Made by a program: the position numbers and the translations under genes. Under the pieces are notes generated by a model. That model ran no database searches. It had not been told where the DNA came from and saw nothing but the letters and a program-made list of their open reading frames with translations. Of a stretch of DNA of 64,000 nucleotides, positions 6,963 through 18,160 are shown piece by piece (the stretch's first letter is position 1; each line of letters opens with the position of its first letter). The DNA comes from Nisaea sp. (lineage in GTDB: Bacteria; Pseudomonadota; Alphaproteobacteria; Thalassobaculales; Thalassobaculaceae): assembly GCF_017640745.1 (NCBI RefSeq), contig NZ_JAEPQA010000021.1, forward strand, positions 1 through 64,000. The letters run 5' to 3'.

Positions 6963-8948
6963 TCAGCCCTCTTCGTGGAAGAAATCATATATCCGTTTCG
7001 CGACGGTTCTGCTGATTCCGTCCACGGCTTCAAGGTCCTGCAGGCCCGCGCGGGAAACCTCGCGGGCGGAGCCGAAATGGTGCAGCAGCGCCTTCTTGCG
7101 CTTGGCGCCGATGCCCGGAATTTCGTCCACCTTGGACTGCCCGATGGCCTTGGCGCGCTTCGCCCGGTGCGTCTCGATGGCGAAGCGGTGCGCCTCGTCC
7201 CGGAGACGTTGCAGGAAATAGAGCACCGGATCGTTGATCGGCAGCGAGAAGGGCGGGCGCTTGCCGGTGAAGAAGCGCTCCCGGCCGGCATCGCGGTCCG
7301 GTCCCTTGGCGATGGAGACGATCGCCACATCCTCGATCCCGAGCTCGCTGAAGACCTCGCGCGCGACGCTGTCCTGGCCCTGGCCGCCATCGATCAGGAC
7401 GAGATCCGGCCAGTTGCCGGAGGTCCTGTCCGGGTCCTCCTTCAGGGCGCGGCTGAAGCGGCGGGTCAGAACCTGACGCATCATCGCGTAGTCGTCTCCC
7501 GCCTGGACCGGCGCGTCGGCACCCTCCTCCAGATCTTCAGCTGCGGGCATCGGCGCATCCGCGGGCACGACATTGCGGATGTTGAACTTGCGGTAGGCGT
7601 TCTTCATCAGCCCGTCGGGACCGGCGACGATCATCGCGCCGGTCGCGTTCGTGCCCTGGATGTGGCTGTTGTCGTAGACCTCGATCCGCTCCGGCGGCTG
7701 TTCGAGATCGAGCGCCTCCGCGAGGCCTTCGAGCAGCCGGCGCTGGGAGGAGCTTTCCGCCAGCCGGCGGCCGTGCGCTTCGCGCGCGTTGGCGATCGCG
7801 TGCTCCATCAGCTTGCGCTTGGAGCCGCGCTGCGGGCGCAGCACCTCCACCTTTCGGTCGGCTCGGGTGCTGAGCGCTTCGGCGATCAGCTCCTGTTCCG
7901 GCATGTCGTGGCTGACAAGTACCAGCTTTGGCGGCGGCTTGTTGTCGTAGAACTGGCCGACGAAGGCGGCGAGGATCTCGCCCGCCTCGAGGCTTTTGTC
8001 GTGGCTCGGGAAATAGGCCCGGTTGCCGTAGTTGCTGCCGCCGCGGAAGAAGAATACCTGGATGCAGGCGGTGCCGCCCTCGCCATGCAGCGCCAGCACG
8101 TCCGCGTCCTCGACGCCCTCGACATTGATGTCCTGGTGCGACTGGATATGGGCGAGCGCGCGGATCCGGTCGCGGTAGCGCGCGGCGCTCTCGAAATCGA
8201 GCGCGTCGCTCGCTTCCTGCATCCGCTCGGCGAGCTGCTGCGAGACCTTGCGGCTGGAGCCGGTGAGGAAGTCCTTCGCCTGGGCGATCAGCTCGCCGTA
8301 TTCGGCCTCGCTGACATAACCGACGCAGGGCGCGGCGCAGCGCTTGATCTGGTATTGCAGGCAGGGACGCGTGCGGCTGGCGAAGATCGCGTCGGAGCAG
8401 TTGCGGATCAGGAAGGCGCGCTGCAGGGCGGTGATCGTCCGGTTCACCGCGCCGGCCGAGGCGAAGGGTCCGAAATAGTCGCCCTTGCGGCTGCGCGCGC
8501 CGCGATGCTTCACCAGCTGCGGCCAGTCGTGGTCGCCGGTCAGCAGGATGTAGGGGAAGGACTTGTCGTCGCGCAGCAGCACATTGAAGCGCGGGCGCAG
8601 CTTCTTGATGAGATTGCTCTCGAGCAGCAGCGCCTCGACCTCGGTATGGGTGCGCACGAACTCCATGCGCTGGGTCTCGCTGACCATGCGGAAGATGCGG
8701 TGCGGCAGCTTGGCCGGGAAGGTGTAGTTCGAGACCCGCTTCTTGAGGTTCCGCGCCTTGCCGACATAGAGCACCTCGTCCGCATGATCGAGCATGCGAT
8801 AGACGCCGGGCGCGTTCGGAAGCAGCTTCACCTGCGCCTGGATGACCTTTACGCCGCGCTCGATGTCCGGCTTCGGCGACCGGACCTTCTGCGCTTGGTC
8901 CGGTTTCGCGTCCGCGGCGTCGGAGGAGGCTGGCTTGGCTGTCGACAT
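6963..8948 (-). CDS. uvrC: UvrABC system protein C (excinuclease subunit)
   Basis: This 661-residue protein makes both incisions around a lesion in nucleotide excision repair. Domains in order: the N-terminal GIY-YIG nuclease (PGVYRMLDH...[12 protein letters not shown], about residues 48-75), a Cys-containing linker ([15 protein letters not shown]), the UVR domain that contacts UvrB (residues about 235-270), the RNase H-like second nuclease ([11 protein letters not shown], then [11 protein letters not shown]), and two C-terminal helix-hairpin-helix motifs ([13 protein letters not shown] and [12 protein letters not shown]). The N-terminus carries about 40 extra residues compared with shorter homologues. 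uvrB is in the same window but not adjacent. Confidence 0.97.
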
Positions 8949-9359
8949 TCTGTCTTTCTAGCGGATCGGCAGGGTTACGGAAACGGCTTCACGCAGAACG
9001 TTTCTGGAACGTCGAACGAGGCGGGCAATCTCTCTCCGACTCTATCCCCGTTCCGTGTGGAAAAGCCTGTGTATAACTCTTGAGCGGCGTGTTCGAGGGC
9101 CCACTTTCCCTCATTCCGCACGCTTTGCCCAAAAATTGAGCATGACCGATAAGTCTATGAAAACAAACAATAAATATTCTAAGGTGCTGATTCATATCAC
9201 AATTTGTGACGGGAAGGTGACCCTTCCATGACTTAGTTCATGATTAACGGCGAATGTGTAAAAAATGCAGGGAAATTTATGCTATCGCTTTTCGTTGCTG
9301 CCATACGGGGTTAGGCTCGCCGCGGTAAATAACCAGCTCCATGTGAAGTTGATTCCCAG
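8949..9359. other. Intergenic region upstream of uvrC and the pteridine reductase gene
   Basis: This 411-bp AT-richer stretch separates two divergent transcription units. I find no convincing gene in it. It must hold the uvrC promoter and the promoter of the gene at 9360. A short hairpin (GGAAGG/CCTTCC with a 4-base loop) lies near 9212-9227. Two sequences resembling degenerate DnaA boxes (near 9057-9080) are probably chance matches. Confidence 0.4.
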
Positions 9360-11769: not shown

Positions 11770-13950
11770 TTATTTCCGGCGCTTTCCCGAGGTCCGTTTC
11801 GGCGGTTTGCCTTTCGGCGGCTGAACGGGGCCCTTGATGCGGACGACCGCGCCCTTCGGCAGCGGCTTGCCTTCCAGCGTCATGCCGAGATCGGCCGCCT
11901 CCAGCCGCTTGATCTCGTCGCGCAGCCGCGCCGCCTCCTCGAATTCGAGATCGGCGGCGGCGGTCCGCATCGCGGCCTCGAGCTCGGAAATGACCTGCTT
12001 GATGTCCTTGCCGACCAGCTCGCCCTCGTCGGAGCCGGTCTCGACCGTCACATGGTCGCCGCGCTCGTAGACGCTTTCGAGAATGTCGCCGATCGACTTC
12101 TTCACGCTCTCCGGGGTGATGCCGTGTTCGGCGTTGTATTCCTCCTGCCGCGCCCGGCGCCGGTTGGTCTCGTCGATGGCGTATTGCAGGCTGTCGGTCA
12201 TCCGGTCGGCATAGAGCAGCACCCGGCCCTCGACGTTGCGCGCCGCCCGGCCGATGGTCTGCACGAGAGAGGTCTTGGAGCGGAGATAGCCCTCCTTGTC
12301 GGCGTCGAGGATCGCGACCAGCGCGCATTCCGGGATGTCGAGCCCTTCGCGCAAGAGGTTGATGCCGATCAGCACGTCGAACACGCCGAGCCGGAGATCG
12401 CGGATGATCTCGATCCGCTCCAGCGTCTCCACGTCGCTGTGGATGTAGCGCACCTTGATGCCGGCCTCGTGCATGTATTCGGTCAGCGCCTCGGCCATCT
12501 TCTTGGTCAGCGTGGTGATCAGCACCCGCTGGCCGAGCGCCGCGCAGTCCTTGCACTCGGCGATCACGTCGTCGACCTGGGTCTCGGTCGGGCGGACGAT
12601 GCAGACCGGGTCGATCAGGCCGGTCGGGCGCACCAGCTGCTCGATGAAGACGCCGCCGGTGCGGTCGAGCTCCCACGGGCCGGGCGTCGCCGAGACGAAG
12701 ACCGTCTGCGGGCGCATGTCCTCCCATTCCTCGAACTTGAGCGGTCGGTTGTCCATGCAGGAGGGCAGCCGGAAGCCGAATTCCGAAAGCGTCGATTTCC
12801 GCGCGAAGTCGCCTTTGTACATGGCGCCGATCTGCGGCACCGTGACATGGCTCTCGTCGACGATCAGCAGCGCGTTCTCCGGCAGGTACTCGAAGAGGGT
12901 CGGCGGCGGCTCGCCCGGATTGCGCCCGGAGAGATAGCGCGAATAGTTCTCGATCCCGGCGCAGGAGCCGGTCGCCTCCATCATCTCCATGTCGAGCACG
13001 GTGCGCTGCTCGAGGCGCTGTGCCTCCAGCAGCTTGCCCGCCTTGTTCATCTCGTCCAGCCGGAGCTTCAGCTCCTGCTTGATCGCCTTCACCGCCTGGT
13101 GCAGCGTCGGCTTCGGCGTGACGTAGTGGCTGTTGGCGAAGACGCGGATCTGCTCGAGCTCAGCCGTTTTCTGCCCGGTCAGCGGGTCGAACTCGTGGAT
13201 CTGGTCGACCTCGTCGCCGAACAGCGAGAGCCGCCAGGCGCGGTCCTCGAGGTGGGCCGGGAAGATCTCGATCGAATCCCCGCGCACCCGGAAGGTGCCG
13301 CGGTGGAAGCTGGCGTCGTTGCGGCGGTACTGCAGCTCGACCAGCTGGCGCATCAGCTTCGTCTGGTCGATGGTCGACCCGGCCTTCACGTTGACCGTCA
13401 TCTTGCCGTAGGTCTCGACCGCGCCGATACCGTAGATGCAGGAGACCGAGGCGACGATGATGACGTCGTCCCGCTCCAGCAGCGCGCGCGTCGCCGAATG
13501 CCGCATCCGGTCGATCTGCTCGTTGATCGAGGCTTCCTTCTCGACATAGGTGTCGGTGCGCGGGACGTAGGCCTCCGGCTGGTAATAGTCGTAATAGGAA
13601 ACGAAATACTCGACCGCGTTGTTCGGGAAAAAGCTCTTCATCTCGCCGTAGAGCTGGGCGGCCAGCGTCTTGTTCGGCGCCAGCACGAGGGCGGGGCGCC
13701 GGACCTCCTGGATCACATGCGCCATGGTGAAGGTCTTGCCCGAGCCCGTGACCCCGAGCAGCACCTGGTCCATCTCTCCCTGCCGGATCCCCGCGACGAG
13801 ATCCCGGATCGCCGCCGGCTGGTCGCCCGCCGGCTTGTACTCCGAGACGATCTCGAACGGCCGCCCGCGATCCTGCGGCGCGGCGCCGGACTTCAGATCG
13901 GGCTTCAGTGCGCCGACAAGGGCGGGGGCGTCTTCGAGTTGGGTGCTCAT
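11770..13950 (-). CDS. uvrB: UvrABC system protein B (excision repair helicase-like subunit)
   Basis: This 726-residue protein is the damage-verifying ATPase of nucleotide excision repair. Walker A is [13 protein letters not shown] near residues 65-77. The beta-hairpin region [12 protein letters not shown] follows near 120. Helicase motifs include [31 protein letters not shown] and QTIGRAARN. The C-terminal UVR motif ([17 protein letters not shown], near 675) binds UvrC. The tail beyond it is lysine-rich and a little longer than in E. coli. It is monocistronic, and the AT-rich island begins just upstream of its start. Confidence 0.97.
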
Positions 13951-14148
13951 GAGGGGAATGTAGGGGGGTGGAATTAGGGAGGGAAGGGGGCTAATTGGAG
14001 TTCCGCCAACCGGACACCAATTTCGTGTTTTGGCTTCAATACCGAATTTTCATAATGCACCAAAAAATACCCTGCACGTATTGCGTTTCTGTCCTATCGT
14101 TAAAACTACCAGAAAATTACTTTTGTTTGATGCTGATGGAGAAAAATA

Positions 14149-15444
14149 GTGAGCTACGCAGATAATGGATTCGCGGAAAATTCTGCAGACAGCGGATTCC
14201 GCTCAGTATTGAAGAATATTCTTTCTGCGCCTTCGGTAAATGCTGTCAGTACAGGAGCTGATAAGGTAAGATATAAAACTTTTGAGAAGTTGGCTTTTCA
14301 GTTTAGGATTGAAAATCCACTGCACAGAATTGTCGCAAATAATGTTTTTACTCTGAGTTTGCCGGTCGCTGTCGCCAGGTTCGTTTGGATGATATCTGGA
14401 AACAATAGGTTAGCAGATATTGCATTCTATGAGCCTCGAGTTGCCTCTTTCACAGATGATGGCGTAATTGTGCCTGGGTCGTCATATGGCGCGAGAATTC
14501 GGCAGGCTCATCCAGGAATTGACCAGTTAAAAGGGGTGATCGACCGCCTTAAGGCTGATCCGAATTCAAGAAGAGCCGCAATTTCAATTTATCAGCCAAC
14601 TGACACGACACGTGAATCGTCAGATATTCCGTGCGCTTTTGGTCTGTTTTTCCATATTCGCGAAGAAAAACTGCATACTCAGATAATAATGAGGTCGAAC
14701 AACGCAGCTGTTCTGCTTCCATTTAACATTTTCGAATTTTCAATGCTTGCAGAAGTAGTTGCAGCTGAGTGCGGTGTCGCAATGGCTCCTTTAAGTCACT
14801 ATGCCGCCTCGATGCACATTTACGAGAATGCCGAAGAGTTTACTAATAGGATTGTGGTCGAGGGGGGGGCGACACGATCAGACCCGATGATTCCCATGCC
14901 GAACAATCCGAAGCCGTTGGATGAGGTTCTCCGACTGGTTCAGTATGAGGCCAGCATGCGCCATCGATCAGAGGCGATTGACGATAGTGCCTTGCAGGAT
15001 GAAATTGATCAAATTCAGGAAATGTTTTCACCCTATTGGCAGCAGTTTGCCTTTTTGTTGCTCGCGACAGTTGTAAATCGAAACTGTAGCCGCTACGGCG
15101 TTGAATTGCTATCCTCTGCCCTTGACCCTCGGTTCGCGAAGCTCATGAGGTGGTCTGATGCTACGGATAAGAACGCGCAAGACGTATCTTCTGACCTCCC
15201 GCTTTTGGACGTATTGCAGCGTTCTGACAATATCGTGATGTTTCACAATACGTTAGCCGGCACTTCTTTCAAGCAGCGTGCGATGAGCCACGAGGCGAAA
15301 ACGGGTGAGCGTCTGTCAGCCGCGGAGCTTCTGGAAGTGCAAGAAAGAGTGGTATCGAGATTGGCTGCTCGCGGATTGAACGCTGAGTTAAGTCAAGCTG
15401 ATTTTGACATGCACCTAGCTGATGTCAGGCGGCAGCATGAATAG
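14149..15444 (+). CDS. Divergent thymidylate-synthase-fold protein with long C-terminal extension
   Basis: The product has 431 residues against about 264 for E. coli ThyA. The GTG start has GGAG seven bases upstream. Residues 40-240 align by eye with thymidylate synthase. The alignment includes FVWMISGNN, SYGARIR (Tyr113), the phosphate-binding SRR (140-142), the catalytic Cys162 in IPCAFGLFFH, Arg182-Ser183, LPFNIFEF with Asn193 (E. coli Asn177), and SMHIY (His223, Tyr225). Several catalytic residues differ: Glu58 becomes Arg77, His147 becomes Ala163 and Asp169 becomes Asn185, and the N-terminal phosphate arginine is not evident. Residues 240-431 form an extra helical region I do not recognise. 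The base composition is much more AT-rich than the flanks, and the gene overlaps the next one. It may have altered chemistry (for example hydroxymethylation) or be a nucleotide-sensing protein. Confidence 0.8.
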   Translation: MSYADNGFAENSADSGFRSVLKNILSAPSVNAVSTGADKVRYKTFEKLAFQFRIENPLHRIVANNVFTLSLPVAVARFVWMISGNNRLADIAFYEPRVASFTDDGVIVPGSSYGARIRQAHPGIDQLKGVIDRLKADPNSRRAAISIYQPTDTTRESSDIPCAFGLFFHIREEKLHTQIIMRSNNAAVLLPFNIFEFSMLAEVVAAECGVAMAPLSHYAASMHIYENAEEFTNRIVVEGGATRSDPMIPMPNNPKPLDEVLRLVQYEASMRHRSEAIDDSALQDEIDQIQEMFSPYWQQFAFLLLATVVNRNCSRYGVELLSSALDPRFAKLMRWSDATDKNAQDVSSDLPLLDVLQRSDNIVMFHNTLAGTSFKQRAMSHEAKTGERLSAAELLEVQERVVSRLAARGLNAELSQADFDMHLADVRRQHE

Positions 15445-16399
15445 TATTGCAGCAACTGCACACGGTTATGGGCGTGCGGAAATTGAGCAGCGGTTGGTGA
15501 AACTGACCGGTGCTTCCAATGCCTATTCAGCGATCCGCCGCTTGTGCACTAGTGTTGTCAGGGCTTCCAATCAAGAAGTCCCACCTTTTCATATTAAACC
15601 GCTATTGGACGTGATTGGAGTTGAGTTTAAGTATAGTGATGTAAATACTGGCCAAGCTGAAGCATCTGTTAGTATCAAGGACGGATCTCTGTTCCTTGAG
15701 GTTCCGAAAGCACATTTCAAAGGCGGTAGTGGGCGTTCAAAAAGGTGGAGATTTTCAATTGCTCATGAGTTTGTTCATATAATTTTGTTGCGTGCACTTG
15801 GGGCGTCTCTGATTGAGCTAACATTCAGGGATGAAGAGACTTATAGTTTTATAGAAGATTTATGTGATTACGCGGCCTCTCATATCCTTCTTCCGCGACC
15901 AAAATTGCTTCAGGAATTGAGAAAAAGTAAAATATCGAGCAAAACTATTTCTATTATTTCGCATAAATATAATGTTTCTGAAGCGGTGATATTTCGATCG
16001 ATAAACGATTTCCTGCCTTGCGGCGGCGTCTTCGGTGTAAAGAAATACAAAAGAAAAAATTCAGAAAAACGGGAACTACGTATTTCTTTTTGTTCAACAC
16101 CATATCGTGAACGTCAAATTAGGCCTTGGCTTCCGTTAGGCTGTACAATGAGACATATTAACCTATCGTCAGGGACATTTGAGGGCGCTTCAGAGGGAGG
16201 CAGAAAAATTGAGGATATTATAATTTCTATTAATAAAAAAGTATGGAAGCTTCATGGGTTAGTTGTTCCGTGGGTCTTTGGCCAAGAGCAGAAAGATATA
16301 TTTGTGAAAAATCGGTCATTAGACGTTCTTGATGATGAGGTGGGTTATGTACTGTTTTGTTCTGAAGCGGGAAAACTTGATGCCACGCTATTTCAGTAG
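15437..16399 (+). CDS. ImmA/IrrE-family metallo-endopeptidase
   Basis: The product has 320 residues if started at the ATG that overlaps the upstream stop. An ATG five codons earlier is the alternative. The zinc-protease signature HEFVH is at residues 110-114 in FSIAHEFVHIILL. A second acidic block, E-D-L-C-D-Y-A-A-S-H-I-L-L-P (140-153), supplies the third ligand region in the ImmA/IrrE (DUF955) pattern. No helix-turn-helix is seen at the N-terminus. Residues 200-320 are a poorly recognised C-terminal domain. Family members cleave repressors in mobile elements (ImmA) or stress regulators (IrrE/PprI). Here the target may be a partner in the same island, which is an inference. Confidence 0.8.
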   Translation: MNSIAATAHGYGRAEIEQRLVKLTGASNAYSAIRRLCTSVVRASNQEVPPFHIKPLLDVIGVEFKYSDVNTGQAEASVSIKDGSLFLEVPKAHFKGGSGRSKRWRFSIAHEFVHIILLRALGASLIELTFRDEETYSFIEDLCDYAASHILLPRPKLLQELRKSKISSKTISIISHKYNVSEAVIFRSINDFLPCGGVFGVKKYKRKNSEKRELRISFCSTPYRERQIRPWLPLGCTMRHINLSSGTFEGASEGGRKIEDIIISINKKVWKLHGLVVPWVFGQEQKDIFVKNRSLDVLDDEVGYVLFCSEAGKLDATLFQ

Positions 16400-16412
16400 G
16401 ACTGTTTACTAA

Positions 16413-16883
16413 ATGTCTAAAATTTATATTTCAGGAGCTTTGCAGGCGTCTACCAACCTGCAAATTGCTAGAGACTTATACGAGGAGGCCGCGAGAATTC
16501 TCGACTCATCTGGAGATTTTTGCTTCCTTCCGCATTTGCAGACCGACCCAGAACGAGCCAAGTTTATCCCTAGTGATGATGTGTTTAGCCGTGATGTTCG
16601 TGCTCTAGAGGACGCGGACGGTGTTATCGCTTTTTTGAACGAACCATCGCACGGCGTAGGCGCAGAAATTGCCATGGCACTTGCTTGGGGGAAGCCGATA
16701 TTGCCGCTTATTGAGAATGGTGGAAAATGCTCGCGTTTCTTAGATGGCTTGCTTCGCTCGCACAACTTCTTTGTTATTACATACGAAGATCATAGACATA
16801 TGGAGTCCGAAATTCGAAAATTTTCGTCGTCAATCAACAGAAAATATTTTCTTCAAAATAAAATCGGCGCGATCTTGGGTTGA
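16413..16883 (+). CDS. Deoxynucleoside 5'-monophosphate N-hydrolase (DNPH1/Rcl-like)
   Basis: This 156-residue protein of the nucleoside 2-deoxyribosyltransferase superfamily matches the Rcl/DNPH1 branch, which hydrolyses the N-glycosidic bond of deoxynucleoside monophosphates, including 5-hydroxymethyl-dUMP in animals. The active-site set is complete by eye: Tyr5 in KIYISGA, Asp61 in FSRDVRAL, Ser79 and Glu85 in EPSHGVGAEIAMA (Glu85 as nucleophile), and Ser107 in GGKCSRFL, the residue that reaches a neighbouring subunit. It follows the protease gene by 13 bp on the same strand. Its 3' end overlaps the opposite-strand kinase-like gene by 54 bp. Transferase rather than hydrolase activity is possible. 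Confidence 0.78.
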   Translation: MSKIYISGALQASTNLQIARDLYEEAARILDSSGDFCFLPHLQTDPERAKFIPSDDVFSRDVRALEDADGVIAFLNEPSHGVGAEIAMALAWGKPILPLIENGGKCSRFLDGLLRSHNFFVITYEDHRHMESEIRKFSSSINRKYFLQNKIGAILG

Positions 16884-17390
16884 TCCTGAAACAGGAATTG
16901 GTTGAATGTTAAATTTATCATATAGTGCGTCGATTTTCTGATCAATACGTGCTTGAAAATTTATATCTTCTTCACGTACTCCATCATTTTCTAGAGGAAA
17001 CTCAATTGGAATTTTGAAAATATGGTCGTAGGTCTGCATCCATTTTTTAATTGAAAATATGAGAGCGTTGCACTCTGCGCTGTTTTCGAACTCTGGAAAT
17101 AAGTCTAACGTATATGCGAGATGATCGATCATAGTTCGGTCTGCGATCAATATATCTGCTTCTTTTTCTTGGAAATAGTCTTCCGTTGCCTGAAAAAGAA
17201 ATATCAATAATTGTCTTAAGGTCGTATTTTTTCCTCTTTGGAAAAATGTACTGTCGTCTACTAAATCAATTATTATGCGTGGGGTTTCATTGCAAATTTT
17301 GGTAATATTTATCTTTATTAAATTGCTTTGCAAGTTCTTAGCTAGCGACGTTTTCCCGGTACCGTGAGCTCCTGTTAATCCAATTTTCAT
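16830..17390 (-). CDS. P-loop kinase-like ATPase (AAA_28/NadR-kinase type)
   Basis: This 186-residue protein opens with MKIGLTGAHGTGKTSLA, a Walker A at residues 7-14. ADILIADRTMIDHLAY near 78-93 resembles the Walker B/lid start of NadR-type and thymidylate-kinase-like small-molecule kinases. Most of its length is helical and there is no further domain. It is very AT-rich: I count 18 G+C in the 60 bases 17161-17220. It is transcribed toward the N-hydrolase gene and overlaps it tail to tail, so it needs its own promoter to the right (17400-17450). A phosphorylated small-molecule substrate, perhaps a deoxynucleoside or its monophosphate, is inferred from family and context. Confidence 0.7.
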   Translation of the reverse strand: MKIGLTGAHGTGKTSLAKNLQSNLIKINITKICNETPRIIIDLVDDSTFFQRGKNTTLRQLLIFLFQATEDYFQEKEADILIADRTMIDHLAYTLDLFPEFENSAECNALIFSIKKWMQTYDHIFKIPIEFPLENDGVREEDINFQARIDQKIDALYDKFNIQPIPVSGSTQDRADFILKKIFSVD

Positions 17391-17524
17391 ATCGCTTCCA
17401 TCCTTTGGTTTACTTGATGGTATAATTGCTGGCTTAGGTTGTCTATAATTTGATTAATTGATGCGTGGAGAGGTATAAAGGGTTTGGAAATAAGGGTACG
17501 CACGTCTCAATTGTCCAACCAACA

Positions 17525-17610
17525 CGTCATCCTGGGTTTTGCTCCGAAACCTTGGCTCTAATCCCGCGCTCATTCGGGACCAGTGGATCCAGACTCTCGT
17601 CAGTATGACG
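17525..17610. repeat. Dispersed palindromic repeat, degenerate copy 1
   Basis: The element begins CGTCATCCTGGG and ends GTCAGTATGACG, with GGGACCAGTGGATCC inside. It shares its ends and inner GGGACC/GGATCC words with the elements at 18317 and 28795, so I treat the three as one family of short inverted-repeat units. This copy is the most decayed and lies just beyond the right end of the AT-rich island. Confidence 0.55.
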
Positions 17611-17656
17611 CAGACAGGGCAGAGTGGCGGCTCCCTCAAACCCACCCGATCCCCGC

Positions 17657-18160
17657 TCACCTCCGCCCGATCCTCTCCATCACCGCCACCATCGCGATCC
17701 CGTAGAGCACATGCCCGACGAGCGCGACCCAGGTAATTCCGGTGAAGTTCAGGAAGAACGGCAGCCCCGCGATCCAGGTGATGCCGCCGATGGCGAAGAC
17801 CCAGAGCCCGAAGCCGTAGAGCGCGGAGGGCAGGAACCAGCCGCCGGGGCCGCCGGTCACCCGTTCCCAGGCCGGCCGGAAGATGTAGAGCCAGCCGACC
17901 GGATAGCCGATCAGCCCGACCAGGTAGAAATGCACGAAATAGCCGGCGAAATCGTTGTGCGGCAGGCCGAAGGCGCCGAGCAGGCTGCGCGCGAGGCCGT
18001 GCGGCGAGAGGTTGGCCCAGCCGAGCGCGGGGCTGATCAACTGGCCCCAGAGATCGAAGGCCGTCGTCGCGACGGCGCCGGCGACGAACATCAGGCCGAG
18101 CGTGGCGGCGTTTAGCGGCGGGACGGCGCGGGGGGCGGTCATGTCGTCTGTCTGGGCCAT
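17657..18160 (-). CDS. Small polytopic membrane protein, unknown function
   Basis: The product has 167 residues. The start is supported by GGAG eight bases upstream. Four to five hydrophobic segments are visible (LGLMFVAGAVATTAFDLWG near residue 21, YFVHFYLVGLIGYPVGW, a segment near 110, and ITWVALVGHVLYGIAMVAV at the end). A conserved-looking LIGYPVGWLYIFRPAWER stretch joins the middle helices. It resembles uncharacterised inner-membrane proteins of proteobacteria, but I cannot name the family. It is monocistronic, between two copies of the dispersed repeat. Confidence 0.65.
   Translation of the reverse strand: MAQTDDMTAPRAVPPLNAATLGLMFVAGAVATTAFDLWGQLISPALGWANLSPHGLARSLLGAFGLPHNDFAGYFVHFYLVGLIGYPVGWLYIFRPAWERVTGGPGGWFLPSALYGFGLWVFAIGGITWIAGLPFFLNFTGITWVALVGHVLYGIAMVAVMERIGRR

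Follow-up and report, generated by a model that had tools for sequence, protein, structure and literature searches.

Within a 64,000-nucleotide stretch of Nisaea sp. DNA (contig NZ_JAEPQA010000021.1; hereafter the window), four low-GC genes at positions 14149-17390, encoding a thymidylate synthase (TS) homologue, an M78 (ImmA/IrrE) protease, a DNPH1-like hydrolase and a P-loop kinase, constitute, by sequence comparison, a single conserved and mobile unit, referred to below as the cassette. Anti-phage defence is its best-supported function, because it occupies a variable hotspot beside uvrB and neighbours known defence genes elsewhere, and such a role is considered probable; chemistry on pyrimidine deoxynucleoside monophosphates (dNMPs) also seems probable, with somewhat less assurance. 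The combined reading, that is a transferred anti-phage cassette acting on pyrimidine dNMPs at the node of deoxyuridine and thymidine monophosphates (dUMP/dTMP), is advanced as plausible but tentative.

A conserved unit of four genes

The TS-like gene (14149-15444, + strand; 431 aa, GTG start; PF00303, 4.5e-25) overlaps the M78 gene (15422-16399, +; 325 aa; PF06114, 5.1e-7), which is followed 13 bp later by the DNPH1-like gene (16413-16883, +; 156 aa; PF05014, Nuc_deoxyrib_tr, 3.3e-8), and the AAA_28 P-loop kinase gene (16830-17390, -; 186 aa; PF13521, 3.9e-18) converges on the latter with a 54-bp overlap, each of these Pfam matches exceeding the curated cut-off of its family. The four open reading frames (ORFs) thus lie where the initial annotation had placed them, and the coordinates, overlaps, families and low GC that it reported are all borne out. 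Taken in the same order, the genes have a GC content of 0.476, 0.415, 0.450 and 0.346, and their GC at third codon positions is 0.31-0.47 vs. 0.86-0.94 in the flanking genes (GC 0.66-0.70), a composition alien to its surroundings; at 0.433, the GC of the island is the sole dip of such size within the window.

The four genes were also expected to co-occur in other genomes if they form a system, and they do. When 289 genomes of the class were searched by protein with the TS homologue as query, the only other full-length homologue was found in Niveispirillum, together with the three other genes, in the same order as in the window and at a different genomic site. Strict patterns, again with the TS as query, were then run against 84,980 species and yielded seven loci, which is a lower bound; the M78 and hydrolase genes adjoin the TS gene in all of them and the kinase gene in six, namely those of Tateyamaria (L027), Actibacterium (L028), a Rhodobacteraceae metagenome-assembled genome (MAG; L029), Roseobacter (L030), Niveispirillum (L033) and Pedobacter (L032). 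These complete loci span two phyla and their proteins are 23-56% identical to those of the window. In the alphaproteobacterial loci, the kinase gene is convergent with the hydrolase gene and overlaps it; in Pedobacter, all four genes run in one direction with that of the kinase in front, a change of order that speaks for the kinase as a member of the unit. Besides, across loci, the four proteins show correlated pairwise identities (Pearson r 0.85-0.97), a correlation to which shared descent of the hosts contributes. The seventh locus (L031, 312-3114), on a short contig of an Aestuariivita MAG, has frameshifted TS and hydrolase genes and no kinase gene in the final 266 bp; this copy may be decayed or reflect an assembly error.

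Genomic context and transfer

Within its own family, the cassette is present in one of 36 genomes and absent from the other 35 searched, so that it is far from being present at this locus in all close relatives; similarly, it occurs in one of the 82 genomes of the Niveispirillum family. Tateyamaria and Actibacterium have 8,867 bp in common at 99.4% identity within chromosomal flanks that are only 65-69% identical, and this longer island, which also carries PD-Lambda-2, represents a recent transfer. Together with the alien composition and the sporadic spread, this upholds the horizontal transfer put forward in the initial annotation.

In four congeners, homology to the window stops at one point beside the start of uvrB (13967-13987), past which each carries a different low-GC cargo. 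As for an empty uvrB site in close relatives, no strictly empty site was found among them, and the congeners instead hold other cargo there. In one (G306), this is a Septu-like pair of AAA ATPase and HNH proteins (PDC-M01A/B, 1.7e-102 and 1.2e-39), in a second (G304) an anti-phage dCTP deaminase (1.1e-149), in a third (G305) a DUF2971 protein weakly matching PDC-S31 (1.6e-13) and in the last (G107) a Schlafen-AlbA_2 (SLFN_AlbA_2) and NB-ARC protein. Elsewhere, the Roseobacter cassette adjoins SIR2-APAZ (2e-132) and short pAgo (5e-138) genes as well as PDC-S01 (1e-142), the Rhodobacteraceae MAG cassette adjoins SIR2 (2e-152) and HerA (1e-103) genes and a Fic protein gene, the SIR2 frame being split by other ORFs, and the Tateyamaria and Actibacterium cassettes adjoin PD-Lambda-2 (PD-Lambda-2_B, 7.5e-111). 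Proximity to known defence genes, one of the checks named in the initial annotation, is thereby substantiated, both at the uvrB hotspot and at other sites.

In the window, the left junction (13987-14148) consists of an AT-rich cassette leader beyond the point where the congener homology ends, and the right junction (17391-17656) precedes the restart of homology to G306 at 17657. The hotspot anchor uvrB (11770-13950, -) and a host membrane-protein gene (17657-18160, -), which in G306 occupies the equivalent position past the other cargo, are outside the system. The window site shows neither integrase nor transposase, and the ends of the island are not linked by any direct repeat of more than 10 bp, as terminal repeats or att sites.

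Among the other cargo at the uvrB hotspot, the Schlafen-AlbA_2/NB-ARC protein (L058, 4278-6821), the DUF2971 protein (L059, 5194-6141) and an uncharacterised 195-aa ORF beside the dCTP deaminase (L057, 3060-3647) are candidates for further defence genes. On the 8.9-kb island of Tateyamaria and Actibacterium, a gene beside the cassette (L027, 11417-12112; L028, 11392-12111) matches nothing in Pfam or PADLOC and by eye resembles uracil-DNA glycosylases (ILVAEAPGFQGARFTGVAMTSER).

Other origins were considered and set aside. Regarding phages, two scans of viral contigs with the TS and one with the hydrolase ended with no confirmed relative; the protease had a single match, weak and partial, and those of the kinase were limited to distant phage kinases. 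Regarding plasmids, the DNA search was negative, as were protein searches with the protease and with the protease and hydrolase taken from a relative, and the kinase gave one distant hit. In the class sample, the kinase profile retrieved one distant relative, in a genome (G100) without the other three genes. The idea that the island has taken over from the host ThyA was also rejected, as the thyA neighbourhood runs off a contig end in the window genome. The assembly of that genome contains neither ThyA nor ThyX, the congeners having ThyA, and this is probably an assembly gap, because the region stops at the end of a contig (C48).

Domains and invariant residues

The TS homologue comprises a TS domain at about 10-300 followed by a C-terminal extension. 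Its closest solved relative is MilA, both by sequence (1.6e-39) and by fold (Z 28.1, rmsd 2.8, 291 aligned), and the second-closest fold is AfhB (Z 20.3, rmsd 3.0, 208 aligned), a riboflavin-dependent dCMP hydroxylase according to its PDB description, on which ground a cofactor other than folate is possible. The structure model is weak at 85-122, 149-161 and 337-367, and the fold of the extension is therefore left unassigned. The ThyA nucleophile Cys146 corresponds to an invariant Cys162, and the dUMP pocket (Arg126/127/166, Ser167, Asn177, His207, Tyr209) is retained in all seven intact copies, the window protein having Arg141/142, the deoxyribose-type Ser183, the uracil-type Asn193, His223 and Tyr225. 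Invariant columns concentrate at residues 71-226 (72/156 vs. 16/205 past 226), so the pocket is under strong constraint.

Two replacements set this pocket apart. The catalytic Glu58 (E. coli numbering) is Arg77 in all seven intact copies, unlike in folate-dependent ThyA, and Asp169 is Asn185, again in 7/7. The Glu is important for catalysis and common to MilA, T4 CH, SPO1 dUH and TS (PMC5175136), and the title of PDB 1bjg states of a D169N mutant that it fails to promote cofactor ring opening. In a comparison set made of canonical ThyA, T4 gp42 and eight TS from mobile elements or cassettes, the Glu58 position is Glu in 14/14 canonical, T4 and mobile-element TS; Arg is otherwise found only in mycobacteriophage Candle, whose TS is the sole other one compared with both replacements. 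With both residues replaced in every intact copy, ordinary folate chemistry by the TS homologue is unlikely, which weakens its assignment as an ordinary folate-dependent (hydroxy)methylase. The idea of a cytosine substrate is weakened too, by the uracil-type Asn193 and deoxyribose-type Ser183, Asp vs. Asn being the determinant of cytosine vs. uracil (PMC5175136).

Several other TS-like genes came to light. The Candle TS (L022, 5866-6864) is 44% identical over 59%, with a deoxyribosyltransferase-like gene (8536-8982) about 1.7 kb away. A recurrent plasmid cassette in Agrobacterium, Leptospira, Pantoea and Rhizobium (L024, 5010-8009; L025, 4818-8651; L122, 4989-7962; L123, 4989-8104) combines a TS-like protein keeping both Glu and Asp and having a cytosine-type Asp, an aGPT-Pplase3 protein (up to 4.9e-115) and a convergent M78 protease; it is a second type of mobile TS and M78 cassette, perhaps for hypermodified bases. 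Gram-positive plasmid clusters of Geobacillus and Streptococcus salivarius (L023, 2766-8728; L125, 3721-7405), which hold two TS-like genes and one thymidylate-kinase-like gene besides PqqD-like and hypothetical genes, are putative nucleotide-modification clusters. In an alphaproteobacterium (G606; L097, 7506-9780), a low-GC cassette combines a TS-like gene (Glu and Asp kept), a dCMP deaminase gene and that of a DCD-like dCTP deaminase extended considerably at its C-terminus. Finally, a cassette on an E. coli IncHI1B plasmid (L124, 2816-5747) encodes a metallophosphoesterase, an uncharacterised 293-aa protein, MazG and a uracil-type TS-like protein with Glu/Asp kept, which could relate to a DefensePredictor system (see below).

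The second protein has a protease domain (HEFVH at 115-119, Glu145), a helix-turn-helix (HTH) and a C-terminal GAF/PAS-like domain with an invariant WLPxGCTxxH, in other words the HExxH motif, the third Zn ligand and the protease-HTH-GAF-like architecture of PprI/IrrE, to which it also has a profile match (8e-11). Its structure model (mean pLDDT 79) superposes on IrrE/PprI over the full length (Z 15.6, rmsd 4.7, 237 aligned) and on CapP (Z 13.5, rmsd 5.0, 230 aligned), the C-terminal part aligning with PAS/GAF-like domains. PprI and CapP are activated by single-stranded DNA (ssDNA) and cleave a repressor, Arg85 of PprI being among the residues needed for ssDNA binding (PMC10904395); it aligns with the invariant Arg108 of the cassette protease. 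No ORF for an XRE-type repressor (DdrO/CapH) is present in the cassette at any locus, and for this reason the protease may act on another protein of the cassette.

The hydrolase is predicted to be a nucleoside 5'-monophosphate N-glycosidase of the DNPH1/MilB type. Its profile matches are headed by DNPH1/Rcl (4e-11), then MilB (4e-7), classical deoxyribosyltransferases matching weakly. The catalytic Tyr24/Asp80/Glu104 and phosphate-binding Ser98 of DNPH1 (PMC10603095) correspond in the profile alignment to Tyr5, Asp61, Glu85 and Ser79, all invariant in the hydrolase copies, as are a PHxxTDP and an SRF motif. In the kinase, the P-loop GAHGTGKT and the DRT motif (DRTMIDHLAY) are intact and invariant, and by its name the PHROGs match phrog_2107 (4e-24) suggests a thymidylate kinase.

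Putative mechanism and alternative explanations

In the most far-reaching reading, a new type of anti-phage immunity that is possible rather than likely, a TS homologue devoid of folate chemistry would act as receptor for nucleotides of the dUMP family, or would use another cofactor to make an unusual signal, and by way of the PprI-like protease would unleash the DNPH1-like hydrolase on the thymidylate branch of the nucleotide pool. In the scheme that we favour, the TS homologue, having lost the residues that activate methylene-tetrahydrofolate, would bind dUMP or 5-substituted dUMP, either as a receptor of these nucleotides or as an enzyme altered to work without folate. The protease would act as switch, ssDNA or a small ligand being sensed by its HTH and GAF-like domains, and once activated would cleave a partner, most likely within the cassette, where no DdrO/CapH-like repressor is encoded. 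As effector, the N-glycosidase would convert dNMPs into free base and deoxyribose 5-phosphate, so that phage DNA synthesis is starved, and the kinase may phosphorylate the same nucleotides, thereby feeding or limiting the reaction. This division of roles among the individual proteins, as receptor, switch, effector and kinase, is a working model and less likely than not. Should the scheme hold, the thymidylate node would join the nucleotide steps guarded or attacked by bacterial immunity, the TS fold would have been put to a use other than folate chemistry, and DNPH1, a drug target, would have a bacterial relative with a physiological role; the cassette is a small clonable unit of 3.2 kb with invariant residues to mutate.

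Several observations weigh against this reading. The defence role rests on guilt by association, albeit from independent places, and what kind of cargo a site holds is no proof of the function of this particular cargo. Outside the window, recognised defence genes lie near four of the six intact loci, two of which have a single near-identical island in common; the neighbours in Niveispirillum are ordinary chromosomal genes and those in Pedobacter mobilisation genes. Glu55/His56 of DNPH1, which recognise 5-hydroxymethyl-dUMP (hmdUMP), match no conserved residues of the hydrolase, with an alignment gap nearby, and the PDB profile matches of the kinase are only 0.006 or worse, which makes its substrate assignment uncertain. 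A non-defence unit that happens to land at defence hotspots, be it a mobile cassette for stress or nucleotide salvage or a selfish unit resembling toxin-antitoxin systems, has to be weighed: its three enzymes all come from nucleotide-metabolism families and the Niveispirillum copy lacks defence neighbours. Such a unit is nonetheless improbable, as host congeners already possess ThyA, a protease switch is unusual for salvage, and sporadic spread with defence neighbours at several independent sites suits defence better.

Two further explanations keep the cassette in defence and change its chemistry. Upon infection, the kinase and the TS homologue, the latter perhaps dependent on flavin, might make a modified pyrimidine nucleotide as a ligand for the GAF-like domain in the protease, which would then kill or arrest the cell, the DNPH1-like enzyme clearing the signal in healthy cells. 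Such signal synthesis would resemble Kongming, which itself employs a phage dNMP kinase and dITP (PMC12948488), and would account for the GAF/PAS-like domain with its invariant motif, for a TS nucleophile and pocket that stay invariant despite the lost folate residues, and for the proximity to AfhB; however, the GAF-like domain of PprI is needed for activation by ssDNA and has no known small-molecule ligand (PMC10904395), and we regard this scheme as unlikely. The proposal of the initial annotation that the cassette makes, senses or removes a non-standard deoxynucleotide is possible, the hydrolase being closest to DNPH1, an hmdUMP hydrolase. Quite unlikely as well is the modified-base chemistry also put forward there, in which the TS homologue would make or sense a 5-modified dUMP that the DNPH1-like enzyme splits, thus blocking phages with modified uracil, or in which both would act as a MilA-MilB-like pair. 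The nearest relatives speak for it, MilA for the TS homologue, DNPH1 (hmdUMP) and MilB (5-hydroxymethyl-CMP, hmCMP) for the hydrolase, and MilA-MilB, a CMP 5-hydroxymethylase and an hmCMP N-glycosidase, is a genuine pair of TS-like protein and N-glycosidase (PMC5175136, PMC4081090). Yet the Glu common to such enzymes is Arg in the cassette and Asp169 is Asn, the pocket is of the uracil and deoxyribose type, unlike that of MilA, and Glu55/His56 seem not to be conserved.

Comparison with known systems

Known systems were compared through PADLOC-DB 2.0.0, in which no model matches the TS homologue or the hydrolase, the kinase matches only at 0.005 or worse and the protease only partially (capP/RmrA). 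No description of such a four-gene set was found in the literature, in a coverage from which preprints are largely absent. Mildiomycin MilA/MilB likewise combine a TS-like protein and a monophosphate N-glycosidase of the DNPH1/NDT family; MilA however keeps the catalytic Glu (Glu68), Asp for cytosine and Ala/Lys for ribose where the cassette has Arg77, Asn193, Ser and Arg, and the cassette additionally has a protease and a kinase. DNPH1/Rcl, the closest PDB profile match of the hydrolase, has the Tyr/Asp/Glu triad and the phosphate Ser in common with it, but seems to differ in Glu55/His56, and differs in the PHxxTDP and SRF motifs invariant in the cassette and in operon context. With PprI/IrrE-DdrO and CapP-CapH, the cassette shares the full-length protease-HTH-GAF-like fold, the Zn ligands and the Arg85 equivalent, and differs by the lack of an XRE-type partner and by its own WLPxGCTxxH motif.

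Kongming (PMC12948488), Clover (PMC12265719) and the anti-phage dCTP deaminase and dGTPase likewise defend via deoxynucleotides, and a congener holds the dCTP deaminase at the uvrB site, but none of their genes is in the cassette; in particular, the KomA deaminase, HAM1-like KomB and SIR2-like KomC of Kongming are not found among its four proteins. The nearest precedent comes from DefensePredictor (PMC13092281, 2026), whose report describes an experimentally validated E. coli defence system with a TS domain; its figure legend also names a dNMP kinase domain, and the text mentions neither M78 nor deoxyribosyltransferase. E. coli genomes searched by DNA with the cassette gave no match. Since that TS-domain system was validated, TS proteins can take part in defence, and the cassette is for the same reason not claimed as categorically new: the set itself matches no description found, and nucleotide-directed defence is a kind already known.

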